DNA of 64,000 nt from Chloroflexi bacterium GWB2_49_20 (GTDB taxonomy: Bacteria; Chloroflexota; Anaerolineae; Anaerolineales; Villigracilaceae): assembly GCA_001796335.1 (NCBI GenBank), contig MGMF01000016.1, positions 1-64,000 of the forward strand, in the 5' to 3' direction. Made by a program: the position numbers and the translations under genes. Positions 5,493 through 64,000 of the stretch are shown here, piece by piece. Numbering within the stretch: the first letter of the stretch is position 1; every line of letters starts with the position of its first letter. The notes beneath the pieces were generated by a model that was not told the origin of the DNA, ran no database searches, and saw nothing but the letters and a program-made list of their open reading frames with translations.

Positions 5493-5723
5493 GTATCTAC
5501 TCACGTCCATAATTGCGATTAATTCCACAGTGGCAGAACGCTGCTGTTCAATGCAAAAAAGCTCTATCTTCTGTCTTTGCGAGGAGCACATACGCACTGG
5601 CTTATCGTGTCCTTCCAGCGACGCCGGAGACTCCGATGCTTTTTGGGGTGGCAATCCCCATGCCGGAGAGGAGACTGCCACGCTGCGCTCGCAGTGACAA
5701 AATCTGATATGGTGAGTAGATAC
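5493..5723 (+). mobile_element. MITE-like element, copy 2 (231 bp)
   Basis: Same orientation and length as copy 1, with the same 12-bp terminal inverted repeat. The perfect 8-bp target duplication GATTTATG lies at 5485-5492 and 5724-5731. The different duplication from copy 1 shows an independent insertion. It sits 29 bp upstream of the symporter start codon. Confidence 0.92.
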
Positions 5724-5834
5724 GATTTATGTTATTAAACCCGCCGGAGAGGCCGGGTTGCGCTGAGTTTTCAGGGCTCTTCCCGATAATTTGGAGGCAT
5801 GTTTCCCCTTCTTAAAGAAGATATTTTTATGGAT

Positions 5835-6680
5835 CTACAGGGAGATGAAAACCAGTGCGACCAGTGCGCACAGGATGCCGATCATTTGCGAGGGAGTGAT
5901 TTTTTCTTTTAAGACCACACGGGCCAATGCCACGGTCGAACCAGGGTAGAGCGAACTGACGACCGCGGCCATGTCCAGGCGGCCTAATTGAGAGGCAAGT
6001 ATATAAAACACATTGCCGGCTGTGTCGAGCAGGCTGATCAGACCGATGTTCATCCAGTGTTTACGATCAGGCAGCCAGGACTGGCGCCTCAGGGTTGTGT
6101 ACAGCAGAAGGCTGGGGATCGAACCGAGGCGGGTGGCCACCACCGGCCAGATGACCGCATGGTCGCTGGCTTGGTGCATGCCCACAAAGAACAAGCCAAA
6201 AAAGATGCCGGATAGAACCGGCAGGCGCAGTTTTGCGAGGAAGTTCGCCAGGCTGATCTTTCCGCTTTGCGCGATCAACCAGATGGCCACCAGCGCCAGG
6301 GCAAAACCGGTCAGCATATACACACCGGGCAGGCCTTCTGTCCAGAGCCCCACCAGGACAGGAATGGCTGCCGCCACCAGGGCGGAGACCGGTGAAGCCA
6401 GGCTCATCTGGCCTTCGGCCAGGGAGCGGTACAGCAAAATCAATCCGGCTCCACCTGCCACTCCGGAGAAGATGGCGAAAATCCAATCACGTGCAGGCGG
6501 CAGGGCTTCCCCAAGCAGAAGTGCGATCGGAACCAGCAAAATCAGGCTGCCGATATACCCGAGGATGACAATGCCAACGCTGCTGGTACGTTTGGCCACC
6601 AGGCCTCCGGTGAAATCGGCTGCGCCATAGGTCAGCGCCGAAACCAGGCCAAACAGGATGGGGATGGATACAAGTCCCAT
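5835..6680 (-). CDS. EamA/DMT-superfamily transporter
   Basis: A 281-residue protein with about ten hydrophobic segments arranged as two EamA repeats (roughly 5-135 and 150-280), the standard drug/metabolite transporter size. GAADFTGGLVAK near the N-terminus and SSLYPGSTVALARVVLKEKITPSQ near the C-terminus are typical of the family. It should export or exchange a small metabolite across the inner membrane; the substrate is unknown. The start codon overlaps the stop of the CitE-like lyase gene (TAATG at 6678-6682), so both are read from one message and the transporter may handle a related acid. Confidence 0.85.
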   Translation of the reverse strand: MGLVSIPILFGLVSALTYGAADFTGGLVAKRTSSVGIVILGYIGSLILLVPIALLLGEALPPARDWIFAIFSGVAGGAGLILLYRSLAEGQMSLASPVSALVAAAIPVLVGLWTEGLPGVYMLTGFALALVAIWLIAQSGKISLANFLAKLRLPVLSGIFFGLFFVGMHQASDHAVIWPVVATRLGSIPSLLLYTTLRRQSWLPDRKHWMNIGLISLLDTAGNVFYILASQLGRLDMAAVVSSLYPGSTVALARVVLKEKITPSQMIGILCALVALVFISL

Positions 6681-7555
6681 TAGAGCTTCTTTTTGGCCGC
6701 ATTGGCGCGCAGGAGCACTGCCCGGGCAGCTTTCACCAGAGGCATGTCGATCATCTTATTCCCATCCAGCGCATACGCGCCTTTGCCCTCCTTAAGGCTG
6801 GCTTCAAAAGAAGCCACGATGCGTTGGGCATGTTCGATGGCAGCCTGGTCCGGGCTGAAGGCCTCCTGGACAGGAGCCACCTGGTTGGGATGGATGACCT
6901 GTTTGCCGCTGTAGCCCAGTTGTGCCCCAAAGCGTGACTCCGCACGCAGCTTTTCGATGTCTTTAAAGTCAATGCTGACCATATCGATGGCCTGCAAGCC
7001 ATAGGCGGCCGCGGCGATGACGACAGCACTGCGGGCGTGGAAGACCTCCCAGGCTTCGGGGGTGCGCATGGCGCCGATATCCGCAGCGAAATCCTCGGCG
7101 CCGAAGATGATGGCATCCAGGCGTGGCTGTGAAGCGATCTCATTTAGGTTGAGAATGCCGCGGGCGGTCTCCACATCCACGATCAGACGGATGGAATGGA
7201 GCGGCCAGCCATGTGCCAGTTCAACGGATTCGATCTGTTCGTTGACCCAGGCCACCTGCCTGGCGTTTTCCACTTTTGGGATGACGATCCCATCCGGGTG
7301 GGCAGGCAGCACGGCAGCCAGCTCATCCGCCTCCAGCCCCGAGCCGACCGGGTTGATGCGCACCAGTTTCTCGGATTGCCCAAAATCCAGTTCTTGCAGG
7401 GCGGCAACGATGCAGGCAAGAGCCTCCGGTTTGCGGCTGGGTGCCACCCCGTCCTCCATGTCCATGCAAATGCAGTCCACGTTCAGGGTCAGGGCTTTTT
7501 CAATTTTGTGGCGATCGTCGCCGGGTACGTACAGAAGGGTTCGTCTTGAGTGCAT
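6680..7555 (-). CDS. CitE-like HpcH/HpaI-family CoA-ester lyase
   Basis: The protein starting MHSRRTLLYVPGDDRHKIEKAL has 291 residues and belongs to the HpcH/HpaI aldolase, citrate lyase beta-like family. RTLLYVPGDD, DMEDGVAPSRK, LVRINP, IVIPKVENARQV and IIFGAEDFAADIGAMR are the family blocks; the Glu and Asp of VDVETARG and GAEDFAADIG bind the divalent metal. The likely reaction is cleavage or hydrolysis of a malyl-CoA- or citramalyl-CoA-like ester. The start at 7555 is chosen over an upstream ATG at 7630 because GGAG lies six bases before it and the family begins there. It is coupled to the EamA transporter. Confidence 0.88.
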   Translation of the reverse strand: MHSRRTLLYVPGDDRHKIEKALTLNVDCICMDMEDGVAPSRKPEALACIVAALQELDFGQSEKLVRINPVGSGLEADELAAVLPAHPDGIVIPKVENARQVAWVNEQIESVELAHGWPLHSIRLIVDVETARGILNLNEIASQPRLDAIIFGAEDFAADIGAMRTPEAWEVFHARSAVVIAAAAYGLQAIDMVSIDFKDIEKLRAESRFGAQLGYSGKQVIHPNQVAPVQEAFSPDQAAIEHAQRIVASFEASLKEGKGAYALDGNKMIDMPLVKAARAVLLRANAAKKKL

Positions 7556-25387: not shown

Positions 25388-27708
25388 TGACGAGAGCCTC
25401 CCAAAATTCCAACCTGGTATCCAACATCCATCTGACCCTCATCCAGTACCCCATATTGAGCGGGAGAATCCGCGCCCATATGCGCCAGGAGCTTTTTGGC
25501 CGGGGTATCATCAAGGTGGAGGCATTTGAAACCGAAGCCCGCCAGAAAGCGCTGCTTTCACAGGAGCGTGAGGGCTTGAATGATCCCTATGCACAGGAAG
25601 CCTCGGAAGTGTGGGAGTTGCGCCTGGGACGCATTCGGGATGCAATGACCGACTTTTATTTTGCATACAACCTGCCCTTCGAATTGTTCGAAGATATCAT
25701 CCGGCATGAGATCGTTGAACGTACAGGTGAACAGCCTGACCTGGCTGCCTTCAATCCCGAACTGGCTCCCCAGGACATGCTCTTTGAACAGGCCAAAGCC
25801 ATAGAACAGATGAGTGCGGAGGACCGTCCGCACTGGGAGGCGCGCCTGCAGGAGATCAAAGTGGTGCTGATCCGCACCATGATCAGCGACCAGCTGGCCT
25901 ACATCAAGATCGCCAAGAAGTGGTTCAAGGTCAGCGACCTGGAAGAGATCCGCAGGCGCAAGCTTGGGCAGGGCAAGATTGGCGGAAAATCCGCCGGAAT
26001 GCTGCTGGCTGCCCGCATCCTGAGCGAGGTGGGCGACGAATCGTTAAAAGCCAGCATAAAGATCCCGGTATCCTATTACCTGGGAGCGGATGTTTTCAAT
26101 ACATTCATGTCCTCCAATGGCTTGATGCCCTGGGGGGATCAAAAATACAAACATGAAGAACAGATGCGCAGCGAGTATCCCCAGATCCAGGCTGAATTCC
26201 AGGCCGGGAAACTTCCGGACGAGATCATCGCCTCCCTGCAGGAGATATTGAACCAGGCCGGGTCACAGCCGCTGATCGTGCGCTCTTCCAGCTTGCTGGA
26301 GGATAGCTTCGGTACCAGTTTTGCGGGTAAATATGACAGCTTCTTCTGCCCCAACCAGGGCACACCCCAAGAGAACTTGAACGCCCTTACGCAAGCCATT
26401 GCCATGGTATATGCCAGCGAGTTAAACCCGGGAGCCCTGTTGTACCGTGTTCAAAAAGGCCTGGTGGACTACGATGAACGCATTGCCGTGCTGATCCAGT
26501 TCGTGGAAGGGCAGCGCCTGGGCAGGTATTACCTGCCTCAAGGGGCGGGGGTGGCCTTCAGCCGCAACCTGTTCCGCTGGTCACCGCAGATCCGGCCGGA
26601 AGCCGGGTTTGTGCGCCTGGTGTGGGGTTTGGGAACCCGGGCAGTGGACCAGGTGGGCGATGACTACCCGCGCCTGATCGCCCTCAGCCACCCGGAGCTG
26701 CACCCGGCTGATTCAAGTCGCGCCATTCAACATTACTCGCAGCGGTACGTCGACCTGATCGACCTGGAAGATAATCAATTCAAGACATTAACCATAAAAG
26801 ATATCATAAATACCCACATTCCCACCCTGCGCTACATGGCACAGGTCGAGGAGGATGGATATCTCAGCCCGGTACGCAGCAACCTGGTGGAAACAGAGCA
26901 ACTGGTGATCACTTTTGATGGGCTTCTGCGGCGCACCCCATTTGCCGCACGCATGCGCAATATGCTGTCCATCCTTGAAGAACATTACGGTTCACCGGTG
27001 GATACCGAATTTGCGCTTGAGATCACCGGGCTGCAGAACCCGCAGCCGGAGCTAAAGATCACGCTGCTGCAATGTCGTCCGCAAAGCCACCTCACCTCTG
27101 ACAGCGAAGTAAAGCTGCCAGGCGAGCTTCCCCTGGAAAACGTACTATTTTCCACCCCGCGCATGGTACCGCGTGGACGGGTGGATGGCATCCAGTACGT
27201 GCTGTTCGTACCCCCCGAGGGCTATTTCAGTCTGGGCAGCAGCGCCGCAAGAATTAAACTGGAACGCGCCATTGGAAAATTGAACGCCGCCCTGCATGGA
27301 CAGGTATTCATCAGCGTGGGACCGGGACGCTGGGGCACTTCCACGCCTGACCTGGGTGTGCACATCAGCTACGGGGATATCTATAACACGCGCGCCCTGG
27401 TGGAACTGGCAGGTCAGGGCATCGGCTCGGCACCCGAGCCTTCTTTTGGTACGCACTTTTTCCAGGACCTGATGGAAGCCCAGATCTATCCGCTGGGGGT
27501 GTACCTGGATGATGAAGATGTGATCTTTAACCGGGATTTCTTCTACAAGACCCCCAACCGCCTGTCAAAATGGATCAAAGCAGATGCGTCACTGAAAAAA
27601 TGCCTGCGCCTGATCCGGGTCAGTGATTTCAAGCCCGGGCAGCATGCCTGCCTGGTCATGAACGACGACCTGGGCAAAGCGGTGGCTTTTTTGGAAGCGG
27701 ATGGGTGA
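25387..27708 (+). CDS. PEP/pyruvate-binding domain protein (PPDK/PEP synthase-like)
   Basis: A 773-residue protein with the nucleotide/pyruvate-binding domain of PEP synthases: KIGGKSAGMLLAARIL (about 198-213), VRSSSLLEDSFGTSFAGKYDSFF (about 299-321), and GVAFSRNLFRWSP. A later GPGRWGTSTPDLGVHISYGDIYNTRALVEL block belongs to the large family of such proteins. The mobile phosphohistidine and PEP-utiliser C-terminal domains of PEP synthase are missing, so it is not a complete PEP synthase; phosphotransfer or energy sensing is possible. The ATG at 25387 is preferred over an in-frame 25345 start. Its last 38 codons are copied twice downstream. Confidence 0.85.
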   Translation: MTRASQNSNLVSNIHLTLIQYPILSGRIRAHMRQELFGRGIIKVEAFETEARQKALLSQEREGLNDPYAQEASEVWELRLGRIRDAMTDFYFAYNLPFELFEDIIRHEIVERTGEQPDLAAFNPELAPQDMLFEQAKAIEQMSAEDRPHWEARLQEIKVVLIRTMISDQLAYIKIAKKWFKVSDLEEIRRRKLGQGKIGGKSAGMLLAARILSEVGDESLKASIKIPVSYYLGADVFNTFMSSNGLMPWGDQKYKHEEQMRSEYPQIQAEFQAGKLPDEIIASLQEILNQAGSQPLIVRSSSLLEDSFGTSFAGKYDSFFCPNQGTPQENLNALTQAIAMVYASELNPGALLYRVQKGLVDYDERIAVLIQFVEGQRLGRYYLPQGAGVAFSRNLFRWSPQIRPEAGFVRLVWGLGTRAVDQVGDDYPRLIALSHPELHPADSSRAIQHYSQRYVDLIDLEDNQFKTLTIKDIINTHIPTLRYMAQVEEDGYLSPVRSNLVETEQLVITFDGLLRRTPFAARMRNMLSILEEHYGSPVDTEFALEITGLQNPQPELKITLLQCRPQSHLTSDSEVKLPGELPLENVLFSTPRMVPRGRVDGIQYVLFVPPEGYFSLGSSAARIKLERAIGKLNAALHGQVFISVGPGRWGTSTPDLGVHISYGDIYNTRALVELAGQGIGSAPEPSFGTHFFQDLMEAQIYPLGVYLDDEDVIFNRDFFYKTPNRLSKWIKADASLKKCLRLIRVSDFKPGQHACLVMNDDLGKAVAFLEADG

Positions 27709-27845
27709 CCTCCCGGCCTCCTTGTTGTGTTGGGGTCTTGTTGTGTTGGGGTCTCCTGACCCCAACACGCAATTGACCGAAGATCCCATGAGGGGAGACC
27801 TTCGGTCACAACCTGGGGCGGGGTCAGGAGACCCTCGCCCAGCAG
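27592..27845 (+). repeat. PEP-binding gene 3' end plus palindromic tail (copy 1, intact gene)
   Basis: This is the 3' end of the intact gene and about 137 bp beyond its stop, where a GTTGTGTTGGGGTC...GACCCCAACAC palindrome and a second GGGTCTCC/GGAGACC palindrome lie, ending in CCCAGCAG. The same arrangement occurs at 28611-28788 and 30728-30965. Here a 16-base piece of the tail is duplicated in tandem. Confidence 0.9.
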
Positions 27846-27918
27846 CCTTCAGCGGGATCAGAGACACACGCTGGGCAGAGACAAGGATTCGCAAAGTAAC
27901 CGGAGTGCAGAAAAGTTG

Positions 27919-27931
27919 TATAATTAACCCA
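27919..27931 (+). promoter_or_regulatory. consensus -10 box directly before a leaderless start
   Basis: A perfect TATAAT at 27919-27924 ends six bases before the ATG at 27931, with TTG at 27916-27918. No ribosome binding site is present, so the message is probably leaderless. Confidence 0.6.
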
Positions 27932-28221
27932 TGAAACGTGATGCGATCATCTCCCTTATACGAAAGAACCAGACCCAATTGAAGGATCTGGGTGTGAGGT
28001 CATTATCCATTTTTGGGTCGGTGGCACGCGGTGAAGAAACTCAGATGAGTGATTTGGATGTACTCGTGGAATTTGAAGGCCAACCCACCTTCGATGGGTT
28101 TATGGATACAAAAATTTATCTGGAAGATCTGCTTGGGCGGAAAGTTGACCTGGTGATGCCCCAAGCCATAAAACCGCAGATAAAACCCCATATCTTGCAG
28201 GATATGATCCATGTCACGTGA
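27931..28221 (+). CDS. MntA-like nucleotidyltransferase antitoxin (second pair)
   Basis: A 96-residue minimal nucleotidyltransferase with GSVARGEETQMSDLDVLV (GSxxRG...SDxD) near residues 29-46 and KVDLVMPQAIKP carrying the third acidic position. It pairs with the overlapping HEPN gene as an AMP-transferring antitoxin. It lies between two copies of the PEP-binding gene 3' end, as its relative at 24.5 kb lies between copies of the fmdB 5' end. Confidence 0.9.
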   Translation: MKRDAIISLIRKNQTQLKDLGVRSLSIFGSVARGEETQMSDLDVLVEFEGQPTFDGFMDTKIYLEDLLGRKVDLVMPQAIKPQIKPHILQDMIHVT

Positions 28222-28555
28222 CATAAGTTTATACTTTGATGATATTGCAATCTGCTGTGAAAAGGTTCTGCGCTTTGCAGATGGGTTGACTTTTGAGCAG
28301 TTCAAGAAAAACGAACTTATTTACGATGCTGTCTTGCGAAACCTTGAAATTATCGGTGAAGCCTCCAAACACGTCCCAGAGGATATACAGGAAAAATTTC
28401 CTCAAATTGAATGGCGTAAGATCGCCGGTTTTCGTGACATTGTCGCACACGAATATTTTGGGGTCACGGATGAAATTGTGTGGGATATTGTAGAAAATAA
28501 AATTGCAAAATTATTGGAACAAGTACAACTGATCCGAAATTCAAAATTTTTTTAA
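28211..28555 (+). CDS. HepT-like HEPN-domain toxin (second pair)
   Basis: A 114-residue DUF86 HEPN protein. The RX4H motif is in RDIVAHEYFG (about residue 75), after NLEIIGEASKHVPEDI. It overlaps the MntA-like gene by 11 bases with coupled translation. It should be a ribonuclease toxin kept inactive by its partner. Base composition is more AT-rich than the flanking genes. Confidence 0.9.
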   Translation: MSRDISLYFDDIAICCEKVLRFADGLTFEQFKKNELIYDAVLRNLEIIGEASKHVPEDIQEKFPQIEWRKIAGFRDIVAHEYFGVTDEIVWDIVENKIAKLLEQVQLIRNSKFF

Positions 28556-28864
28556 TCTCAGCTCATTAAGGAGCGGGCATAGTATGGTATTGGAAGACCT
28601 GTGCCTGAGCCTTGTGATGAATGATGACCTGGGCAAAGCGGTGGCTTTTTTGGAAGCAGATGAGTGACCCCCTCCCGGCCCTGTTGTGTTGGGGTCAGGA
28701 GACCCCAACACGCAATTGACCGAAGGCCTCAAGAAGGGAGACCTGCGGTCACAACCTGGGGCGGGGTCAGGAGACCCTTGCCCAGCAGCGCCGAAGGCGG
28801 AGGGGGTCAGCAAATGCGGGCAGCCTGAACGGTCTTGATCGGGTAAAACAGGGCCTCGACCCGC
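28556..28864. other. intergenic holding copy 2 of the gene-end repeat
   Basis: The stretch is filled by repeat copy 2 (28611-28788) and short spacers. No gene is visible. Confidence 0.6.
28611..28788 (+). repeat. partial copy of PEP-binding gene 3' end plus tail (copy 2)
   Basis: It encodes the last 18 codons of the gene (LVMNDDLGKAVAFLEADE then stop) followed by the same palindromic tail ending CCCAGCAG. Compared with copy 1 it differs at mostly synonymous positions and lacks the tandem duplication in the tail. Confidence 0.88.
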
Positions 28865-29137
28865 TCAAATCCCGGCGCTGCTCAGAGATTCGAGCAGCTT
28901 GGAAATCAGCGTGGTCAGGCCAGGGTTGGTAACCTCGAAATGAGTAAGTGAGCCTTCCAGGTTCTGAACAAAGCTGGGCTGTAACTCCACGGGATCTTCC
29001 TCCGAACGCAAGAGCAAGGCGCGGATATCCCCCTCCAGGTCACGCAGCAACTCGCCATCTTTTTCGTCAACCGTGCGGATGTTATTGATCTCATCGTGAA
29101 GTTCTTGGAGAAGTTTACGATGTTCTTGTGTGTCCAT
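28865..29137 (-). CDS. DUF4404-family small protein
   Basis: A 90-residue helical protein of the DUF4404 type: HRKLLQELHDEINN, ELLRDLEGDIRALL, and the C-terminal NPGLTTLISKLLESLSSAGI match the family layout. It is soluble and probably oligomeric; function is not known. The ATG at 29137 has AAGGAGG nine bases upstream. Confidence 0.75.
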   Translation of the reverse strand: MDTQEHRKLLQELHDEINNIRTVDEKDGELLRDLEGDIRALLLRSEEDPVELQPSFVQNLEGSLTHFEVTNPGLTTLISKLLESLSSAGI

Positions 29138-29257
29138 GTGGGTCTGCCTCCTTATCGAAGTCGATGATTTATTTTAGCATTAAAATTGAATGGGAAGGGT
29201 AGACTCGCCTGGAACGCGGGGTCACAGATCCTGGTTTGCCGGAGAAGAGGGGACGGA

Positions 29258-30514
29258 TCAATACAGTTTTTGCACCTCGGGGGTTTTCATTAAAACCAGC
29301 CGCGAAAGGACCAGGGAGCAGACCGCGAACAAGGTCATGGCGATCCCCAACCCCAGTTTTTCACCGAGGAAGCCGATGAGTAAGTTCCCGAATGGAGAAA
29401 ATCCAAAGAAGGTGATGGTGTAAAGCCCCATGACCCGGCCTCGGAATGCATCCTCCACGCGGGTTTGCAGAAGGGTATTGATGGTGGTGAACTGCACCAT
29501 GAAACCGATGCCCAGGCCAAAAGCCAGTAGAAGAGAAATTGGGACCCAGGGTGTGAAGGAAAAAGCGATCAGGATCAGCGGAAAAGCGATATTGGTTAAT
29601 ACCAGCAATTGTCCGCGCTTGCCGTTGCTGACCCGGTGCGCCAGCAAAAATGCCCCGCTGACCGCTCCCAATCCAGTGGCGGCATTCACCCACCCATATA
29701 TCATGGCTCCCTGATGAAGCGTTTTCTCCACAAACGCCGGCAACATGGTGGAATAAGAAATGCCAAATATGCTGAAAACCAGCGAGAGCAGGATCAAGGC
29801 CGAGATTTCGCGATTGTGTCCCGCGTACTGCACACCACTGACCAATTGTTTCCAGGGCGAAGCCAGGTTTTGGAATGCCTGGCGCAACGGCAATTTCATC
29901 AGCCCCAATCCGGCAATGACCGCTAAATAAGAAATCCCGTTCAGGGTGAAACACCAGGCCGGGCCGATAATTGCAAGGAGAAGCCCGGCGATCGCCGGGC
30001 CGATGACACGCGCACCGTTGAACATCATCGAGGTCAGGGCTATGGCATTGGGCATGTCATCCTTCCCAACCATTTCCGGGATAAATGCCTGGCGGGCGGG
30101 GGCATCAAAGGCGTTGACCACCCCCAGCAAGCCAGCCAGCACGATCACATGCCATTCCTTGACAACATTTGCGAATGTCAATCCGGCCAGGATAAATGCC
30201 AGCAGCATGGCGCCTGCCTGGGTCAGTATAAGCAGGTTACGGCGGGAGACGCGGTCCACGATCACACCGCCCCACGGAGATATCAACAAAATTGGGATGG
30301 CGGATGCAAAAGCGACCATCCCCAATGCCAATTCTGAGTGACCGATCTGATAAACCACCCAGCCCTGGGCGATGATCTGCATCCATGTGCCGATGTTGGA
30401 GATCAATTGGCCGCCTAAATATAATTGAAAATTACGATGGCGCAGGGCAGAAAAAGTCGAGTTGGAGGGCGGAGCGATCTGCTGGATCGGTTGCTTAACG
30501 ATGGGTTCTTCCAT
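29258..30514 (-). CDS. MFS exporter (MFS_3/EntS-like)
   Basis: A 418-residue major facilitator protein with about twelve membrane segments: NFQLYLGGQLISNIGTWMQ at the N-terminus, ISPWGGVIVDRVSRRNLL as the loop-2/3 motif, and GGRV-like ...AFRGRVMGLYTI further on. These features are typical of EntS-like efflux pumps. The likely role is drug or siderophore export. It lies downstream of a broken marR-like gene in the same orientation; loss of that repressor could make the pump constitutive. Confidence 0.9.
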   Translation of the reverse strand: MEEPIVKQPIQQIAPPSNSTFSALRHRNFQLYLGGQLISNIGTWMQIIAQGWVVYQIGHSELALGMVAFASAIPILLISPWGGVIVDRVSRRNLLILTQAGAMLLAFILAGLTFANVVKEWHVIVLAGLLGVVNAFDAPARQAFIPEMVGKDDMPNAIALTSMMFNGARVIGPAIAGLLLAIIGPAWCFTLNGISYLAVIAGLGLMKLPLRQAFQNLASPWKQLVSGVQYAGHNREISALILLSLVFSIFGISYSTMLPAFVEKTLHQGAMIYGWVNAATGLGAVSGAFLLAHRVSNGKRGQLLVLTNIAFPLILIAFSFTPWVPISLLLAFGLGIGFMVQFTTINTLLQTRVEDAFRGRVMGLYTITFFGFSPFGNLLIGFLGEKLGLGIAMTLFAVCSLVLSRLVLMKTPEVQKLY

Positions 30515-30605
30515 AATCCAAATAAACTCCTAAAATTATTCCTATCTTTTCAATAATTCGGAAGAAGGTTCCCCCCTTTTTTGAGAAGTTACAATGATTC
30601 TTTTG

Positions 30606-31097
30606 TCAATCCTGTTGACCTTGAGGGACAAAAATCTGGCGAAAAAGTTTCATGGTCCGGCAGATCGTTTCCAGTTCAGCGTTGGAAAGGCGCCCCAAAT
30701 TCCCGGCTAAATTAGCCTGATGTGACCCTGAAAAAATGCCTGCGCCTGATCCGGGTGAGTGATTTCAAGCCCGGGCAGCATGCCTGCCTGGTCATGAACG
30801 ACGACCAGGGCAAGGCGGTGGCGTTCTTGGAAGCGGATGAGTGACCCTCTCCCGGCCTTGTTGTGTTGGGGTCTCCTGACCCCAACACGCAATTGACCGA
30901 AGGTCTCATGAGGGGAGACCTGCGGTCACAACCTGGGGCGGGGTCAGGAGACCCTCGCCCAGCAGTCTCAAGGTTCGAAACTGGGGTATCGAGATATCAG
31001 AACCGCGATTGCGGCGCATTTCCACCCGGATCGCTTGCATTATTTGCGGGACAATGTCTACGATTTCGCGTGTACAGGTATTGAGCAGTTCAGCCAT
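30606..31097 (-). pseudogene. MarR-family repressor broken by a repeat
   Basis: The N-terminal part ([18 protein letters not shown]...[12 protein letters not shown], 31097 to about 30966) and a C-terminal part (NLGRLSNAELETICRTMK, ending with TGA at 30608-30606) of a MarR regulator are separated by repeat copy 3 (30728-30965) on the other strand. About 60-70 residues, including the winged helix, are missing, so the gene is replaced in part rather than merely interrupted. It precedes the MFS exporter and probably once controlled it. Confidence 0.85.
30728..30965 (+). repeat. partial copy of PEP-binding gene 3' end plus tail (copy 3)
   Basis: It encodes LKKCLRLIRVSDFKPG...FLEADE and stop, then the palindromic tail ending CCCAGCAG, as in copies 1 and 2. 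Against copy 1 it has several third-position changes, so it is not a recent duplicate. It lies inside the marR-like gene. Confidence 0.9.
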
Positions 31098-36562: not shown

Positions 36563-36942
36563 TATAACCCTTTGCTGTCTTCGTGCCCCCCCATGTTTAA
36601 GGGAGGTGTGACCTGGTGATAAAAGGTATGATAACCACTAAGGCACCAAGCCACGAAGAAAAACAAATGAGAGGTTGTTCTGCTTGGTGTCTTTGTGACC
36701 TGGTGGTAAAAAAATGTAACCACTAAGGCACGAAGAAAAATAAATAAGTTTTTTCTCTTAGTGTCTTTGTGACCTGGTGGTAAAAAAATGTAACCACTAA
36801 GGCACGAAGAAAAATAAATAAGTTTTTCTCTTGGTGTCTTTGTGACTTGGTGGTAAAAGGTATGACAACCACGAAGGCACCAAGCCACGAAGAAAAACAA
36901 ATAAGAGGTTGTTCTACTTGGTGTCTTTGTGACTTGGTGGTA
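36563..36942. repeat. left palindromic-repeat array
   Basis: The array consists of a partial right arm (36563-36630) that starts with CTATAACCC resembling the GxxExxY gene end, and units at 36633-36708, 36718-36781, 36792-36853 and 36868-36942. Each unit has a left arm like AACCACTAAGGCACCAAGCC and a right arm like TGTCTTTGTGACCTGGTGGT. Units are separated by short AT-rich spacers (AAAAGGTATGAT). Confidence 0.88.
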
Positions 36943-36952
36943 AAAGTATGAT

Positions 36953-37441
36953 AACCACGAAGGCACGATCCCGGAAAAAGAGGCCGGGACTTAGGCACGA
37001 AGATTCAATTAAGGAGACCAATGCTCCATGCCCCTATTTCCGAAAAAGAAGAACAAATAGCCCAAAAAATAATAGATTCTGCATTTACTGTTCATAGTAC
37101 ACTTGGCCCCGGATTATTGGAAAATATTTATGAAGTCTGTCTCTGTTATGAATTGACGAAACGCGGATTACCCAACAGGCGGCAGGTAGTTTTGCCAATC
37201 CAATATGATGGGATTTCATTTGATGAGGGTTTGCGGTTGGATGTTTTGGTGGATGAACTGGTCATCTGTGAATTAAAGGCAGTGGAGATCATGCATCCTG
37301 TTTTTACAGCTCAACTTCTTACCCAGTTAAAGCTAACTCATAAACGCCTGGGATTCCTGATCAATTTCAATGTCCCGTTGATCAAGAATGGCATTAAGCG
37401 GATTGTCCTATAACCCCTTGAAGTCTTTGTGACCTGGTGGT
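36953..37441 (+). mobile_element. candidate autonomous element: palindrome arms around a GxxExxY gene
   Basis: Left arm 36953-37004 (AACCACGAAGGCAC, with the nested CCCGG...CCGGG insertion, ending GGCACGAAG) and right arm 37417-37441 (TTGAAGTCTTTGTGACCTGGTGGT) are the two halves of the repeat unit. Between them lies one gene, the GxxExxY gene, with its own RBS. The neighbouring gene-less palindromes would then be short derivatives of this unit. That the gene moves the repeats is inference. Confidence 0.6.
37021..37413 (+). CDS. GxxExxY protein (PD-(D/E)XK-like fold)
   Basis: A 130-residue protein of the GxxExxY family. The naming motif is at 31-37 (GLLENIY), and a PD-(D/E)XK-like triad is visible as D74 (LRLDVLV) and E84-L-K86 (ICELKAVE). 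QLLTQLKLTHKRLGFLINFNVPLIKNGI is the family C-terminal half. The enzyme activity has not been shown to my knowledge; the fold suggests a nuclease. The ATG at 37021 follows TTAAGGAGACCA and the gene ends just before the right arm of a repeat unit. Its neighbours are the repeats themselves. Confidence 0.9.
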   Translation: MLHAPISEKEEQIAQKIIDSAFTVHSTLGPGLLENIYEVCLCYELTKRGLPNRRQVVLPIQYDGISFDEGLRLDVLVDELVICELKAVEIMHPVFTAQLLTQLKLTHKRLGFLINFNVPLIKNGIKRIVL

Positions 37442-37452
37442 AAAAGGTATGA

Positions 37453-37737
37453 TAACCACTAAGGCACCAAGCCACGAAGAAAAACAAATAAGAGGTTGTT
37501 CTGCTTGGTGTCTCTGTGACCTGGTGGTAAAAAAATGTAACCACTAAGGCACGAAGAAAAATAAATAAGTTTTTTCTCTTAGTGTCTTTGTGACTTGGTG
37601 GTAAAAGGTATGATAACCACGAAGGCACGATCCCGGAAAAAGAGGCCGGGACTTAGCCACGAAGAAAAACAAATAAGAGGTTGTTCTGCTTGGTGTCTTC
37701 GTGCCCCCATGTTTAAGGGAGGTGTGACCTGGTGGTA
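37453..37737. repeat. right palindromic-repeat array
   Basis: Three units at 37453-37528, 37539-37601 and 37615-37737. The last has nested insertions in both arms (CCCGG...CCGGG on the left, CCCCCATGTTTAAGGGAGG on the right) like those at 32822 and 52372. It runs to 28 bases before the next gene start. Confidence 0.85.
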
Positions 37738-61139: not shown

Positions 61140-61749
61140 CTTTCTAATCCTTTCTTTGAGAAAAACCAGAAAACCACTTCATTTTCACTGAAGGTTGTCA
61201 TTATTATTAATCCCCTGCAGATAATGATTATCGGTCAATTTTCAAACAAAAGGCTCTGATATTATTCTCCAGCAAAATGTCATGATCATTTCGCATTTAT
61301 GCCACGATAGATCAATCACCACCCTATGATCCGCTCTCCAGGATCCACAATGCGCTTACATCATTTCTCCTTCTATTTCATTAAGTATAAGAAATTAATT
61401 ACATCTTTTCAATATTGGGAAAAATTTCACAAAGTATATAAACCAAACCCCCAGGATATACCTTAACCGCTATTTGAATGTCAATCGGCAAATGGGCTGA
61501 AGCAATGTTGGGTTTCACCCTGTTGGGGTCTTTTGCGTTTTGGTGGGGGCAGGATGGGGAGATTGATGGATGCGCTCTACCCAACCTTGCTGGCAGGCGG
61601 CGAGATAAAAGCCTGAGAGCATATAAACGCCTAAGGTGGAGAAATTACTTGTAAGTCGCACAGACTCCCACCAGTCAGGTGCACGCTGTATTGGGCGGCA
61701 CTTTGTGTGGCGAGTGCAAATATCATAACAAATTTGGTTGTTGTTCTTG
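61140..61749. other. intergenic with repeats, no gene seen
   Basis: The 46-bp direct repeat at 61542-61587 lies here, with a poor copy of a GTTGGGTTTCACCC repeat just before it. An open minus-strand frame at 61515-61757 covers it but has no start support. Confidence 0.5.
61542..61587 (+). repeat. 46-bp direct repeat, left copy
   Basis: The bases from GGTGGGGGCAGGATGGGGAG to CTACCCAACCT are identical to 63601-63646 (46 of 46). Both copies are in the same orientation and bracket a 2.0-kb segment with three small genes. Confidence 0.92.
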
Positions 61750-62247
61750 TCATACAATTTTCAAGAGCACAAAAATAAGCATTATCAACCAAAAAATGAA
61801 GACGCACACATATAGCAACACGAACATGACCGAATGTGAGAATATGAATTTCTTTTCCCTCTTTGCTGAACCTTTCAACGGTTTGCTTAAGAACCGAGGA
61901 ACAATCTGCGCGTGCATCAAGATGGAGAATAATCCTTGTTCTTCATTAAGACCAAGGATTTTTTCAAGTGCATACCCCCCCTTCAAAAGTTCATTTAAGA
62001 GTTGATACGTGCGGATTTCCAGCATTCCACAGATGAATGTTAGAACAACACCAAGTATTGATATTAATATCTTAGAAAACATGAGGGAGCCTGTCTGGAA
62101 TAAAGCACTGGCTAGAAACCCGTCTGCAGCAATAGAGAGACCAGCCACGGTAAAACGTATTTGTACCAAGTTATTGTGGTAATCTACAATTCCATTGTAG
62201 CCTGTACTCAAATTTTCACATTTGATTGTTGGGTTACTATTTTCCAT
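61750..62247 (-). CDS. membrane protein of unknown function
   Basis: A 165-residue protein (from MENSNPTIK) with a possible amphipathic N-terminus, two hydrophobic helices (about 35-75) and a strong C-terminal pair (about 135-165). AT-rich, unlike the neighbours. The start at 62247 is chosen with GGAGG eleven bases upstream, an unusually long gap, so 62265 is also possible. No family was recognised. Confidence 0.6.
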   Translation of the reverse strand: MENSNPTIKCENLSTGYNGIVDYHNNLVQIRFTVAGLSIAADGFLASALFQTGSLMFSKILISILGVVLTFICGMLEIRTYQLLNELLKGGYALEKILGLNEEQGLFSILMHAQIVPRFLSKPLKGSAKREKKFIFSHSVMFVLLYVCVFIFWLIMLIFVLLKIV

Positions 62248-62347
62248 GGTGTTGTTATCCTCCATGATTCTGTTCAACTCTGAAAACGTAATAATTACTC
62301 AGCCTCTTTTTAGAGCAACGATCTGTTCCTAAAAACCATTTTCTATT

Positions 62348-62413
62348 GGAACCGCCTAACGGTTTGCGTACGATCCCGCCTGTCCTGACTTTTTTGTCAG
62401 GGCAGGCTTTCTG
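62348..62413 (+). repeat. dispersed repeat with a GTCAGGGCAG hairpin
   Basis: AACGGTTTGCG, then CCCGCCTGTCCTGACTTTTTTGTCAGGGCAGGC forms an 11-12 bp hairpin. A close relative is at 56641-56690 and a short one at 59884-59912. Confidence 0.6.
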
Positions 62414-62555
62414 CGGGGTGGCAGCGGGCGGCGGGACTGGCAAGGCTGCTCATATTATCGCGCCGATTCTTCAGACCTGACAGGTTTTTTTGGGAAATTT
62501 TTTACAGGTGGATTGTTTTGCCTTCAGGTTCAACCTCATCCTTGTGATTACTGCC

Positions 62556-62858
62556 TTAAGGATCCTGTTTTATTATTCTCATTTCAGAATGACCACAATT
62601 TGGGCATCTGCCTTCTCTAATGTCAGTTCCTTCCCTGCTTGCACCAGCAACAGCCACTCCGCCAAACATGCTGCCGGGACCAAATAAATAAAGCTGGCTA
62701 AGAGCTTCTTGTGTGAATGGAACTCCACACTTGGCACAGCTTGCTTTAAATCTACCATAAAGAGCATCTATTTCAGATGTATTGGTTGCTTTGGAAGAAC
62801 GCACCAGCTCAGTAAAACAGTTTCCCCATGTGTTCATCGGAATTATCACTTCTGTCAT
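62556..62858 (-). CDS. small zinc-ribbon protein
   Basis: A 100-residue protein with CAKC near residues 41-44 and CPNC near residues 85-88, the two CxxC pairs of a treble-clef zinc ribbon. The linker has the phrase QEALSQLYLFGPGSMFGG. No family was recognised. A GC-rich RBS (GGAGG) precedes the ATG. Confidence 0.65.
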   Translation of the reverse strand: MTEVIIPMNTWGNCFTELVRSSKATNTSEIDALYGRFKASCAKCGVPFTQEALSQLYLFGPGSMFGGVAVAGASREGTDIREGRCPNCGHSEMRIIKQDP

Positions 62859-63266
62859 GAGTGCGCCTCCTGAGTGCTATTAAATTGCATCTTCGATAAC
62901 GGACTGTGGATGGTCTCCAGGCTGCTCATATTATCGCGCCGATGCTTCAGACCTGACAGGTTTCATCGTGACCTGGATCAATTATAAGTCCGCGCATCCA
63001 AGTCTAGCCGGTTGATCACACCTCTACGGAAACCTGTCAGGTTTTTCAAGTCCCGCATGTTTTAAGCGGGGTGGTGGCTGGGTGCAGGTAACCGCGATCC
63101 ATTCGTCGCTCATTTTTTATTTCTTTGGCTCGGCTGTCGCAGAGTTATACCGAACCAATTTATCCCAATCAATTTCGCCATTATCTTTACAGAAGATATT
63201 CGCAAATTCTTTGGTGAATTTATTGATCATTTGCGAATACGATATTACAAAATTATTTATCATCAC
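62859..63266. other. intergenic with repeats, no gene seen
   Basis: It contains the CTCATATTATCGCGCC repeat (62927-62942) and the 102-bp element (62947-63048). A plus-strand frame at 63082-63384 is a shadow of the small minus-strand gene at 63267-63446. Confidence 0.5.
62947..63048. mobile_element. 102-bp element bounded by an AACCTGACAGGTT-type palindrome, copy 2
   Basis: It has ends TCAGACCTGACAGGTTTCATC and AAACCTGTCAGGTTTTTCA, and its inside matches 42326-42427. Both copies are the same length (102 bp). Confidence 0.7.
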
Positions 63267-63446
63267 TCAAATCAATTTTTCAATTATGGAGTTGAGAATT
63301 GCATCATACCAATTGATTTTTTCACCGATCAAATCCTTTACTTTTTCGATTTCAGCATCTGATAATTCTCTATCCATTTCCTGAAAAGCAATTGTTTGAA
63401 TATCTTCAATGTTCAATGAATAAACAATTTCGTTTTTATCTTTCAT
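63267..63446 (-). CDS. small helical protein before a TdeIII-like restriction gene
   Basis: A 59-residue protein (MKDKNEIVYSLNIEDIQTIA...AILNSIIEKLI) with a strong binding site GGAGGAGT directly upstream of the ATG at 63446. It is AT-rich and acidic. Its role is unknown; its position next to a restriction gene suggests a small accessory or control protein. The open frame is convincing because of the RBS and clean end. Confidence 0.6.
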   Translation of the reverse strand: MKDKNEIVYSLNIEDIQTIAFQEMDRELSDAEIEKVKDLIGEKINWYDAILNSIIEKLI

Positions 63447-63600
63447 ACTCCTCCAAAATCAGTAAGTAAGTAGTTGGGTTGAGGGGCGGTTTATTGGGCA
63501 TATTGACGAACAATCAATTGCCCCGCGAAGTACCCGTCCGTAGGAGACCTGTAGGGTGTAGGGTGAAACCCAACTTCCTGAAGCAATGTTGGGTCGCTTC

Positions 63601-63646
63601 GGTGGGGGCAGGATGGGGAGATTGATGGATGCGCTCTACCCAACCT
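63601..63646 (+). repeat. 46-bp direct repeat, right copy
   Basis: Identical to 61542-61587. It lies just upstream on the plus strand of the TdeIII-like gene's 3' end (63668). Confidence 0.92.
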
Positions 63647-63667
63647 ACCAACACTAGACGCAGGTTT

Positions 63668-64000
63668 TTATGCCTTAAATGTGGAGAAGTAAGAATCGAT
63701 TTCCGGGCGCAATTCGATTCCAACTCTTTCAAAACAATTGAGCAGTTCGTTATAAGCTCCTTGTCCACCCAGGAAATCCCAAAACTCTTCAGCTACTTTC
63801 AACTCTTCTTTTAAATCCAACATACCTTTCATTGTCCATCGCTGATAGGGTTCAGGCTCATAGGGATTGTATGGAATTGCTATGCAAGACTTGACATCCG
63901 CTCTGGGATCTTGTGCCAATTTTATTGCCACCCACTCCAACATAGTTCTTTTGAAATCTTTAAAGTTGCTAATATTTGGTTTAACCGTTTTTAGGTCAAA
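63668..64000 (-). CDS. TdeIII-like type II restriction endonuclease, 3' part
   Basis: The frame is open from the window edge and covers about the last 110 residues. CIAIPYNPYEPEPYQRWTMKGMLDLKEE, EEFWDFLGGQGAYNELLNCFERVGIELRPEID and YFSTF match the C-terminal part of TdeIII-family type II restriction endonucleases. The catalytic N-terminal part and any methylase lie outside the window. AT-rich. Confidence 0.85.
   Translation of the reverse strand, partial: FDLKTVKPNISNFKDFKRTMLEWVAIKLAQDPRADVKSCIAIPYNPYEPEPYQRWTMKGMLDLKEELKVAEEFWDFLGGQGAYNELLNCFERVGIELRPEIDSYFSTFKA

Follow-up and report, generated by a model that had tools for sequence, protein, structure and literature searches.

Restriction-modification (R-M) systems can encode small polypeptides of their own, among them the PvuIIW-type peptide, which inhibits the nuclease. 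GTAG-tagged repetitive extragenic palindromic (REP) elements are dispersed sequences of 20-40 bp in which GTAG precedes an imperfect palindrome, and they are reported in Chloroflexi among other phyla (PMC3733652). The locus analyzed here lies at the right end of a 64,000-nucleotide stretch of DNA from Chloroflexi bacterium GWB2_49_20 (contig MGMF01000016.1, positions 1 to 64,000; henceforth the window), where two copies of a 46-bp direct repeat stand close to a TdeIII-family type II R-M system and to a gene for an acidic protein of 59 amino acids (aa). We consider it probable that these repeats belong to a dispersed REP-like family rather than marking the ends of a mobile box, and that the locus is a patchwork combining an intact TdeIII pair with the tail of a decayed operon of the HNH/EcoO109I type.

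The first component of this patchwork is complete. The gene that an earlier note had called TdeIII-like does encode an endonuclease of this family, matching PF09520 over residues 14-247 (E value of 9.8e-90), and the methylase that the note proposed to look for beyond 64 kb is present as a 526-aa methyltransferase (MTase) gene at contig positions 64459-66039, upstream of the endonuclease gene and overlapping it by one base. The MTase matches the PADLOC profile PDLC03249 over residues 2-524 (5.3e-232), and the two genes form an intact pair at contig positions 63668-66039. A literature search on TdeIII found no papers.

The second component would be what is left of another operon, with the HNH gene gone up to its stop codon, the 59-aa gene still open behind its leader, and the EcoO109I gene cut to its last ~44 codons (loci and contigs are given below by our L and C numbers). 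The piece of EcoO109I is identical in 36 of 44 residues to the EcoO109I tail of L045. The earlier note had counted three small genes between the repeats; the 59-aa gene is real, with GGAGGAGT directly before its ATG as the strong ribosome-binding site that the note described, whereas the 49-aa open reading frame (ORF) is this EcoO109I remnant and was rejected as a separate gene. At the DNA level, the window is 88% identical over 212 nucleotides to L042, which carries the closest relative of the small protein; the homology sets in four bases ahead of the HNH stop codon, at 63465, which is the edge of the repeats. The stop codon is followed by the leader in the order TGA-TTTTGGAGGAGT-ATG, and the repeat array lies on the far side of the homology boundary. 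In a tree of the small protein (31 rows, mostly unresolved, stars marking 4 of the 28 inner branches), the protein of the window clusters with that of L042 (98/81), then with L043 (96/90) and L036 (89/95), all of them from HNH loci. To judge from these comparisons, the small gene of the window derives from an HNH-type operon. The head-to-head repeat pair at 63462-63648 occupies the seam between the intact and the decayed system, and the simplest account is that the seam was formed by insertion of, or recombination at, these repeats. In the tree of TdeIII endonucleases, the window enzyme falls into a group of 10 rows, some from loci that have the small gene and some from loci that lack it, so that the tree provides no date for the patchwork.

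Such a history raises the question of whether the 59-aa gene of the window is merely debris that has survived by chance from a dead operon. We regard this as quite possible, while leaning away from it. The HNH gene is gone, EcoO109I is deleted, and the frame closes a few residues sooner than in L042; L043, L046, L047, and L166 likewise have an open small gene where the nuclease is broken or missing. Nevertheless, the frame and the ribosome-binding site are intact, and the protein matches all 13 columns that were invariant in the first 14 sequences kept. Comparison with the L042 gene yields a ratio of nonsynonymous to synonymous substitution (dN/dS) of ~0.2 (dN, 0.087; dS, 0.416), which argues against debris, although constraint in the L042 lineage alone could account for it.

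The repeats themselves are exact over 46 bp and on the same strand (61542-61587 and 63601-63646), as the earlier note had said, with 21 bases between the right copy and the TdeIII stop codon. The longest exact direct repeats in 20 order-1 Markov windows measured 14-18 bp, so the match is not due to chance; nor is it exceptional in its surroundings, since eight of the other exact direct-repeat runs reach at least 46 bp among the 26 of at least 30 bp in the window, the 46-bp repeat included. Other long exact direct repeats, of up to 121 bp, are found at 2687/5493, 27622-31000, and 36588-37700. Both copies, A on the left and B on the right, start with CTGAAGCAATGTTGGGT, continue with a segment 22 bp longer in A, and then enter the identical part ending in ACCCAACCT, so that the word "perfect" applies to only part of the unit. 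The 46-bp repeat forms the greater part of a REP-like element, ~65-95 bp long and dispersed in the genome, with the ends GTTGGGT...ACCCAACAT (on the other strand, copy B reads GTAGGTTGGGTAGAGCG...ACCCAACATT).

Dispersal of this element is evident from the remainder of the genome. The pattern GGTTGGGTWGAGCG has six exact and 13 one-mismatch sites, against five for the reversed control, and at 9 of these 19 sites, including both window copies, the partner end AAACCCAACA (with at most two mismatches) follows 46-81 nucleotides downstream, a spacing counted without a control; as these nine two-ended sites were found via one end pattern, they are a lower bound on the copy number. Copy B is identical to the copy at C22:9776 in 54 of 71 aligned columns and to the C7 copy in 52 of 70, and none of 300 shuffles did as well in either case; its similarity to the C25 copy is weaker, being matched by 6 of 300 shuffles. 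The stretch at 63462-63577, which abuts copy B, owes its place in the family to its ends, its overall similarity to copy B being matched by 29 of 300 shuffles. The GTAG tag is present in copy B, in this third stretch, and in five of seven other aligned copies; it is missing from copy A, which has GCAAG instead, and from the C15 and C25 copies. The hairpins predicted for the elements are of modest strength (z of -1.6 to -2.2), and both window copies sit 3' of genes.

The next-best match to the 46-bp repeat in its own genome covers only 27 bp at 89% identity, the contig from 64 kb to its end at 66820 contains no further close copy, and the comparison with relatives found no match in 60 related genomes, none of the same genus. 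No exact 32-mer of the repeat occurs in the genome_contigs set, from which the genome's own records may have been left out. The two window copies resemble each other far more than they resemble the others, and recent local copying of the element itself is possible. The earlier note had taken the perfect identity as the sign of one recent event, a reading that is not supported, as the identity covers part of a dispersed element; it had also set its link between repeat and box against the case of a common dispersed unit, and the repeat has largely turned out to be such a unit, apart from the closeness of the two window copies. Of the two Y1_Tnp genes in the genome, one has no GTTGGGT/ACCCAAC in the surrounding 6 kb, and the other, near a contig end, has none within 1.9 kb on the one side available. 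Mobilization of the element by a REP-associated tyrosine transposase (RAYT) was accordingly rejected, neither gene being seen flanked by the element. The size, the copy number, and the lack of an associated RAYT together recommend the label "REP-like" rather than REP. In sum, the repeats are real, ordinary, and REP-like, and it is the small R-M-linked protein family that appears worth pursuing.

This family has no name, and searches of Pfam, NCBIfam, PHROGs, and PADLOC with the 59-aa protein gave nothing above cut-off. Literature searches on small R-M proteins turned up nothing that we recognized as the family, and no paper naming the PvuIIW-type peptide was found. In another genus of the same bacterial family, a homologue is found 12 bp downstream of an HNH nuclease gene, and a search of genome_contigs with the two-row alignment recovered 13 more, one of them (L054) broken; the records are named Chloroflexota, Thermodesulfobacteriota, Bacteroidota, Nitrospirota, Pseudomonadota, and others. 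With a 14-row profile, the family was detected in 3 of 400 genomes of the window's own phylum (its own genome and that of the other-genus homologue included) and in 17 of 395 genomes of the phylum to which the Chitinophagales genome used as the query belongs (this genome counted). No relative was detected in viral contigs, plasmids, or phages with two-row or single-sequence queries, which may miss distant relatives. The window protein is 83-84% identical to that of L042, 73% to that of L043, and 40-48% to the TdeIII-side members L051-L053. It is acidic, with an isoelectric point (pI) of 4.3; 26 of 28 aligned members have a pI below 6 (median of 4.55, obtained without a control set), and Y9, D15, and W46 are invariant in all 28 sequences.

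The gene neighborhoods link the family to restriction. In 26 of the 32 loci with the small gene, there is a homologue or piece of a TdeIII, HNH, or EcoO109I endonuclease, or the matching MTase, on the same strand. The nuclease or its piece lies upstream of the small gene in 23 of these 26, at 221 bp in the window and from overlapping to 87 bp in the other 22, with overlaps or gaps of at most 18 bases in most loci. The remaining three have the small gene between MTase and nuclease (L119), before a lone EcoO109I piece (L047), or behind a lone MTase piece (L127). L127 also has, at 5519-7336, a gene for a SIR2-like protein with TPR repeats, possibly a defense gene, downstream of the small gene and the MTase fragment, and L126 contains two family genes, of which one immediately precedes a 309-aa gene and the other overlaps a TdeIII-like nuclease at its end. 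In L114, L122, and L123, the small gene lies between genes that we take, by recognition, to be queC-like and queF-like, and the neighbor in L123 has a weak match to a type II endonuclease (7e-5). In L117 and L118, this gap is filled by a complete TdeIII R-M system, and in L114, L122, and L123 it contains only the small gene, either alone or with a 309-aa gene; it is a possible insertion site for R-M systems.

The gene order and the tight coupling suggest that the small protein acts on or with the nuclease, whereas the variety of partner nucleases speaks against a role in sequence recognition. We tentatively suggest that it may be an acidic helical protein produced alongside the nuclease, as a partner that binds it and either restrains it or helps to assemble it; restraint would be the favored mechanism. 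The MTases of the HNH loci are pertinent here. A full-length HNH ORF is found in 12 loci, eight of which (L036, L042, L045, L048, L112, L116, L120, and L125) have no MTase or only a 5' stub of one (the stubs being at L042, L045, and L112), while at the others the MTase is about three-quarters long (L044), has a match that runs past a stop codon (L050), or looks full (L049 and L121). An active nuclease left free there would be costly, and these loci fit a restrainer. With still greater reserve, we propose a broader picture, in which a hitherto undescribed family of small acidic proteins, present in several phyla, would associate with restriction endonucleases from five or more Pfam families (HNH_2, TdeIII, PDDEXK_4, Mrr, and MjaI, the last with an MTase in between), with further operons including EcoO109I, and restrain them, nucleases such as the HNH type then being able to persist at loci whose MTase has been lost.

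Several observations weigh against these proposals. The missing MTases could lie elsewhere in the genome, or the HNH nuclease could be modification dependent. Six of the 32 loci (L054, L107, L114, L122, L123, and L124) have no TdeIII, HNH, or EcoO109I gene nearby, and 20 other TdeIII loci from 15 other genomes of the window's phylum have no small gene within ~1.5 kb, from which it follows that TdeIII can do without it. In L168, TdeIII and the small gene occur with a piece of EcoO109I, which is therefore not confined to HNH operons. A prediction fixed beforehand, that at least three-quarters of the new matches in the phylum of Desulfonema magnum would lie beside TdeIII, HNH, or EcoO109I genes or their MTases, failed: the profile found 13 of 395 genomes including the query, hence 12 new matches, with 10 loci read, and a strict count gave 4 of 12 (L164, L165, L166, and L168), or five with the distant MTase match of L170. 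Widening the count to any restriction endonuclease, which was done after the data had been seen, raised it to 7 of 12 through PDDEXK_4 (L161 and L164), Mrr (L163, 3.1e-37), and MjaI (L170, 2.3e-46, with an MTase between this nuclease and the small gene). L162, L167, L169, L158, and L159 did not qualify even then, the last two, marginal matches (E of 1.8e-4 and 4e-4) that fall within frames of 437 and 447 aa, being counted as misses. Finally, the model of the small protein, with three helices, is of middling confidence (pLDDT of 75.8; pTM of 0.49), and a fold search of the PDB provided no convincing match (best Foldseek E of 2.0). The best VIA rows, a histone in a FACT complex (Z of 3.9; root mean square deviation of 5.6) and a bacterial histone (Z of 3.3), are too weak for use, and a sequence search of solved structures reached a best E of 0.075.

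Two other functions can be conceived for the small protein. It might be a transcriptional control protein for the nuclease, comparable to the controller (C) proteins of R-M systems, given that it is small, helical in the model, codirectional with its neighbors, and linked to several kinds of R-M systems. This is unlikely in view of the lack of a match to any helix-turn-helix (HTH) family in Pfam, NCBIfam, or PADLOC, the position of the nuclease upstream of the small gene in 23 of the 26 loci, and the acidic character, which is unusual for a DNA-binding protein. It might equally be a subunit or effector required for cleavage, for instance through oligomerization, rather than a restrainer. The close coupling to the upstream nuclease would be expected of such a subunit, but its occurrence with nucleases of several Pfam families and the TdeIII loci that lack it make this, too, improbable. 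If the preferred role as a restraining partner is correct, a general partner of nucleases would help explain how restriction endonuclease genes move between hosts and outlast their MTases, and the family would be a candidate for the control of restriction at the protein level.

The interval between the repeats holds other features (Table 1). The 175-aa ORF probably encodes a membrane protein, to go by its hydrophobic stretches, and the 100-aa ORF has only sub-cut-off Pfam matches, including transposase zinc ribbons (E of 0.05-0.06), with no link to R-M found for it. The second repeat family, of ~100 bp with AAACCTGACAGGTTT ends, has copies in C12, C15, C16, and C25 at 77-91% identity. The interval is AT-rich as the earlier note stated (GC content of 0.423 versus 0.512 for the window), although 10 of 124 equal-sized windows are lower still. 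A mobile or composite element spanning 61542-63646, bounded by the direct repeats and recently inserted beside the TdeIII system, is hardly credible and was rejected as the main explanation: near-identical direct copies do lie just 2 kb apart, with no comparably close third in the genome or in 60 relatives, but the box as a whole has a single full-length match in its own genome (the set searched for it), none of its four tested ORFs matches a transposase or recombinase above cut-off, inspection by eye shows no duplicated target on the outer sides of 61499 and 63648, the element also occurs singly at other sites, and the enclosed small gene and EcoO109I remnant are parts of an R-M operon that would have extended across copy B. 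Beyond the MTase, contig C16 carries a DUF559 nuclease-like gene at 66504-66818 (L009:8504-8818), cut by the contig end at 66820; a CCTCCCCCAAATC stretch lies near it and occurs also in element neighborhoods elsewhere.

Table 1. Features at the right end of the window
Feature	Position	Strand	Remarks
REP-like element copy A	61499..61587	-	contains 46-bp repeat 61542-61587; inner part 22 bp longer than in copy B; no GTAG (GCAAG instead)
175-aa ORF	61750..62277	-	two strongly hydrophobic stretches; no family match above cut-off
Second, unrelated dispersed repeat family	62443..62487	+	palindrome AAACCTGACAGGTTT; another copy at 62919-63046
100-aa ORF	62556..62858	-	two CxxC pairs, zinc-ribbon-like
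EcoO109I-family endonuclease C-terminal remnant, ~44 residues	63117..63266	-	not a gene of its own
59-aa acidic small protein gene	63267..63446	-	family linked to restriction endonucleases
Leader	63447..63465	-	TGA stop of lost HNH gene (63459-63461) plus TTTTGGAGGAGT; common to HNH-type relatives L042 and L043
Third element-like stretch	63462..63577	+	abuts copy B head to head; ends GTAAGTAAGTAGTTGGGTT...GTGAAACCCAAC
REP-like element copy B	63580..63648	-	contains 46-bp repeat 63601-63646; GTAG tag present
TdeIII-family type II restriction endonuclease, 263 aa	63668..64000, on to contig 64459	-	Pfam PF09520

Set against the described systems, the element of the window resembles the GTAG-tagged REP sequences in its GTAG (in most copies), imperfect palindrome, 3' location, pairing in opposite orientation, and dispersal, but departs from them in its length of ~65-95 bp rather than 20-40 bp, its low rather than high copy number, the lack of GTAG in copy A, and the lack of a flanked RAYT (PMC3733652). 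As in other type II R-M systems of the TdeIII (PF09520) family, the MTase and endonuclease genes are adjacent, here with one overlapping base, comparable to the close-packed pairs of L052, L053, L115, and L117; unlike in those systems, the small gene downstream is of the HNH-operon type and 221 bp away, most of this distance being repeat. With the HNH_2 operons that include an EcoO109I endonuclease or a piece of it (L042, L044, L045, L049, L050, and L121), the window shares the small gene and the EcoO109I C terminus, and the leader of its small gene matches those of L042 and L043, but it has lost HNH and most of EcoO109I. The C proteins of R-M systems provide a parallel for a small third gene in a type II system, from which the present family differs in having no HTH family match, in being mostly 3' of the nuclease, and in being acidic. 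With the PvuIIW-type peptide, the window's protein shares the character of a small R-M-encoded polypeptide and the idea of a restrainer.

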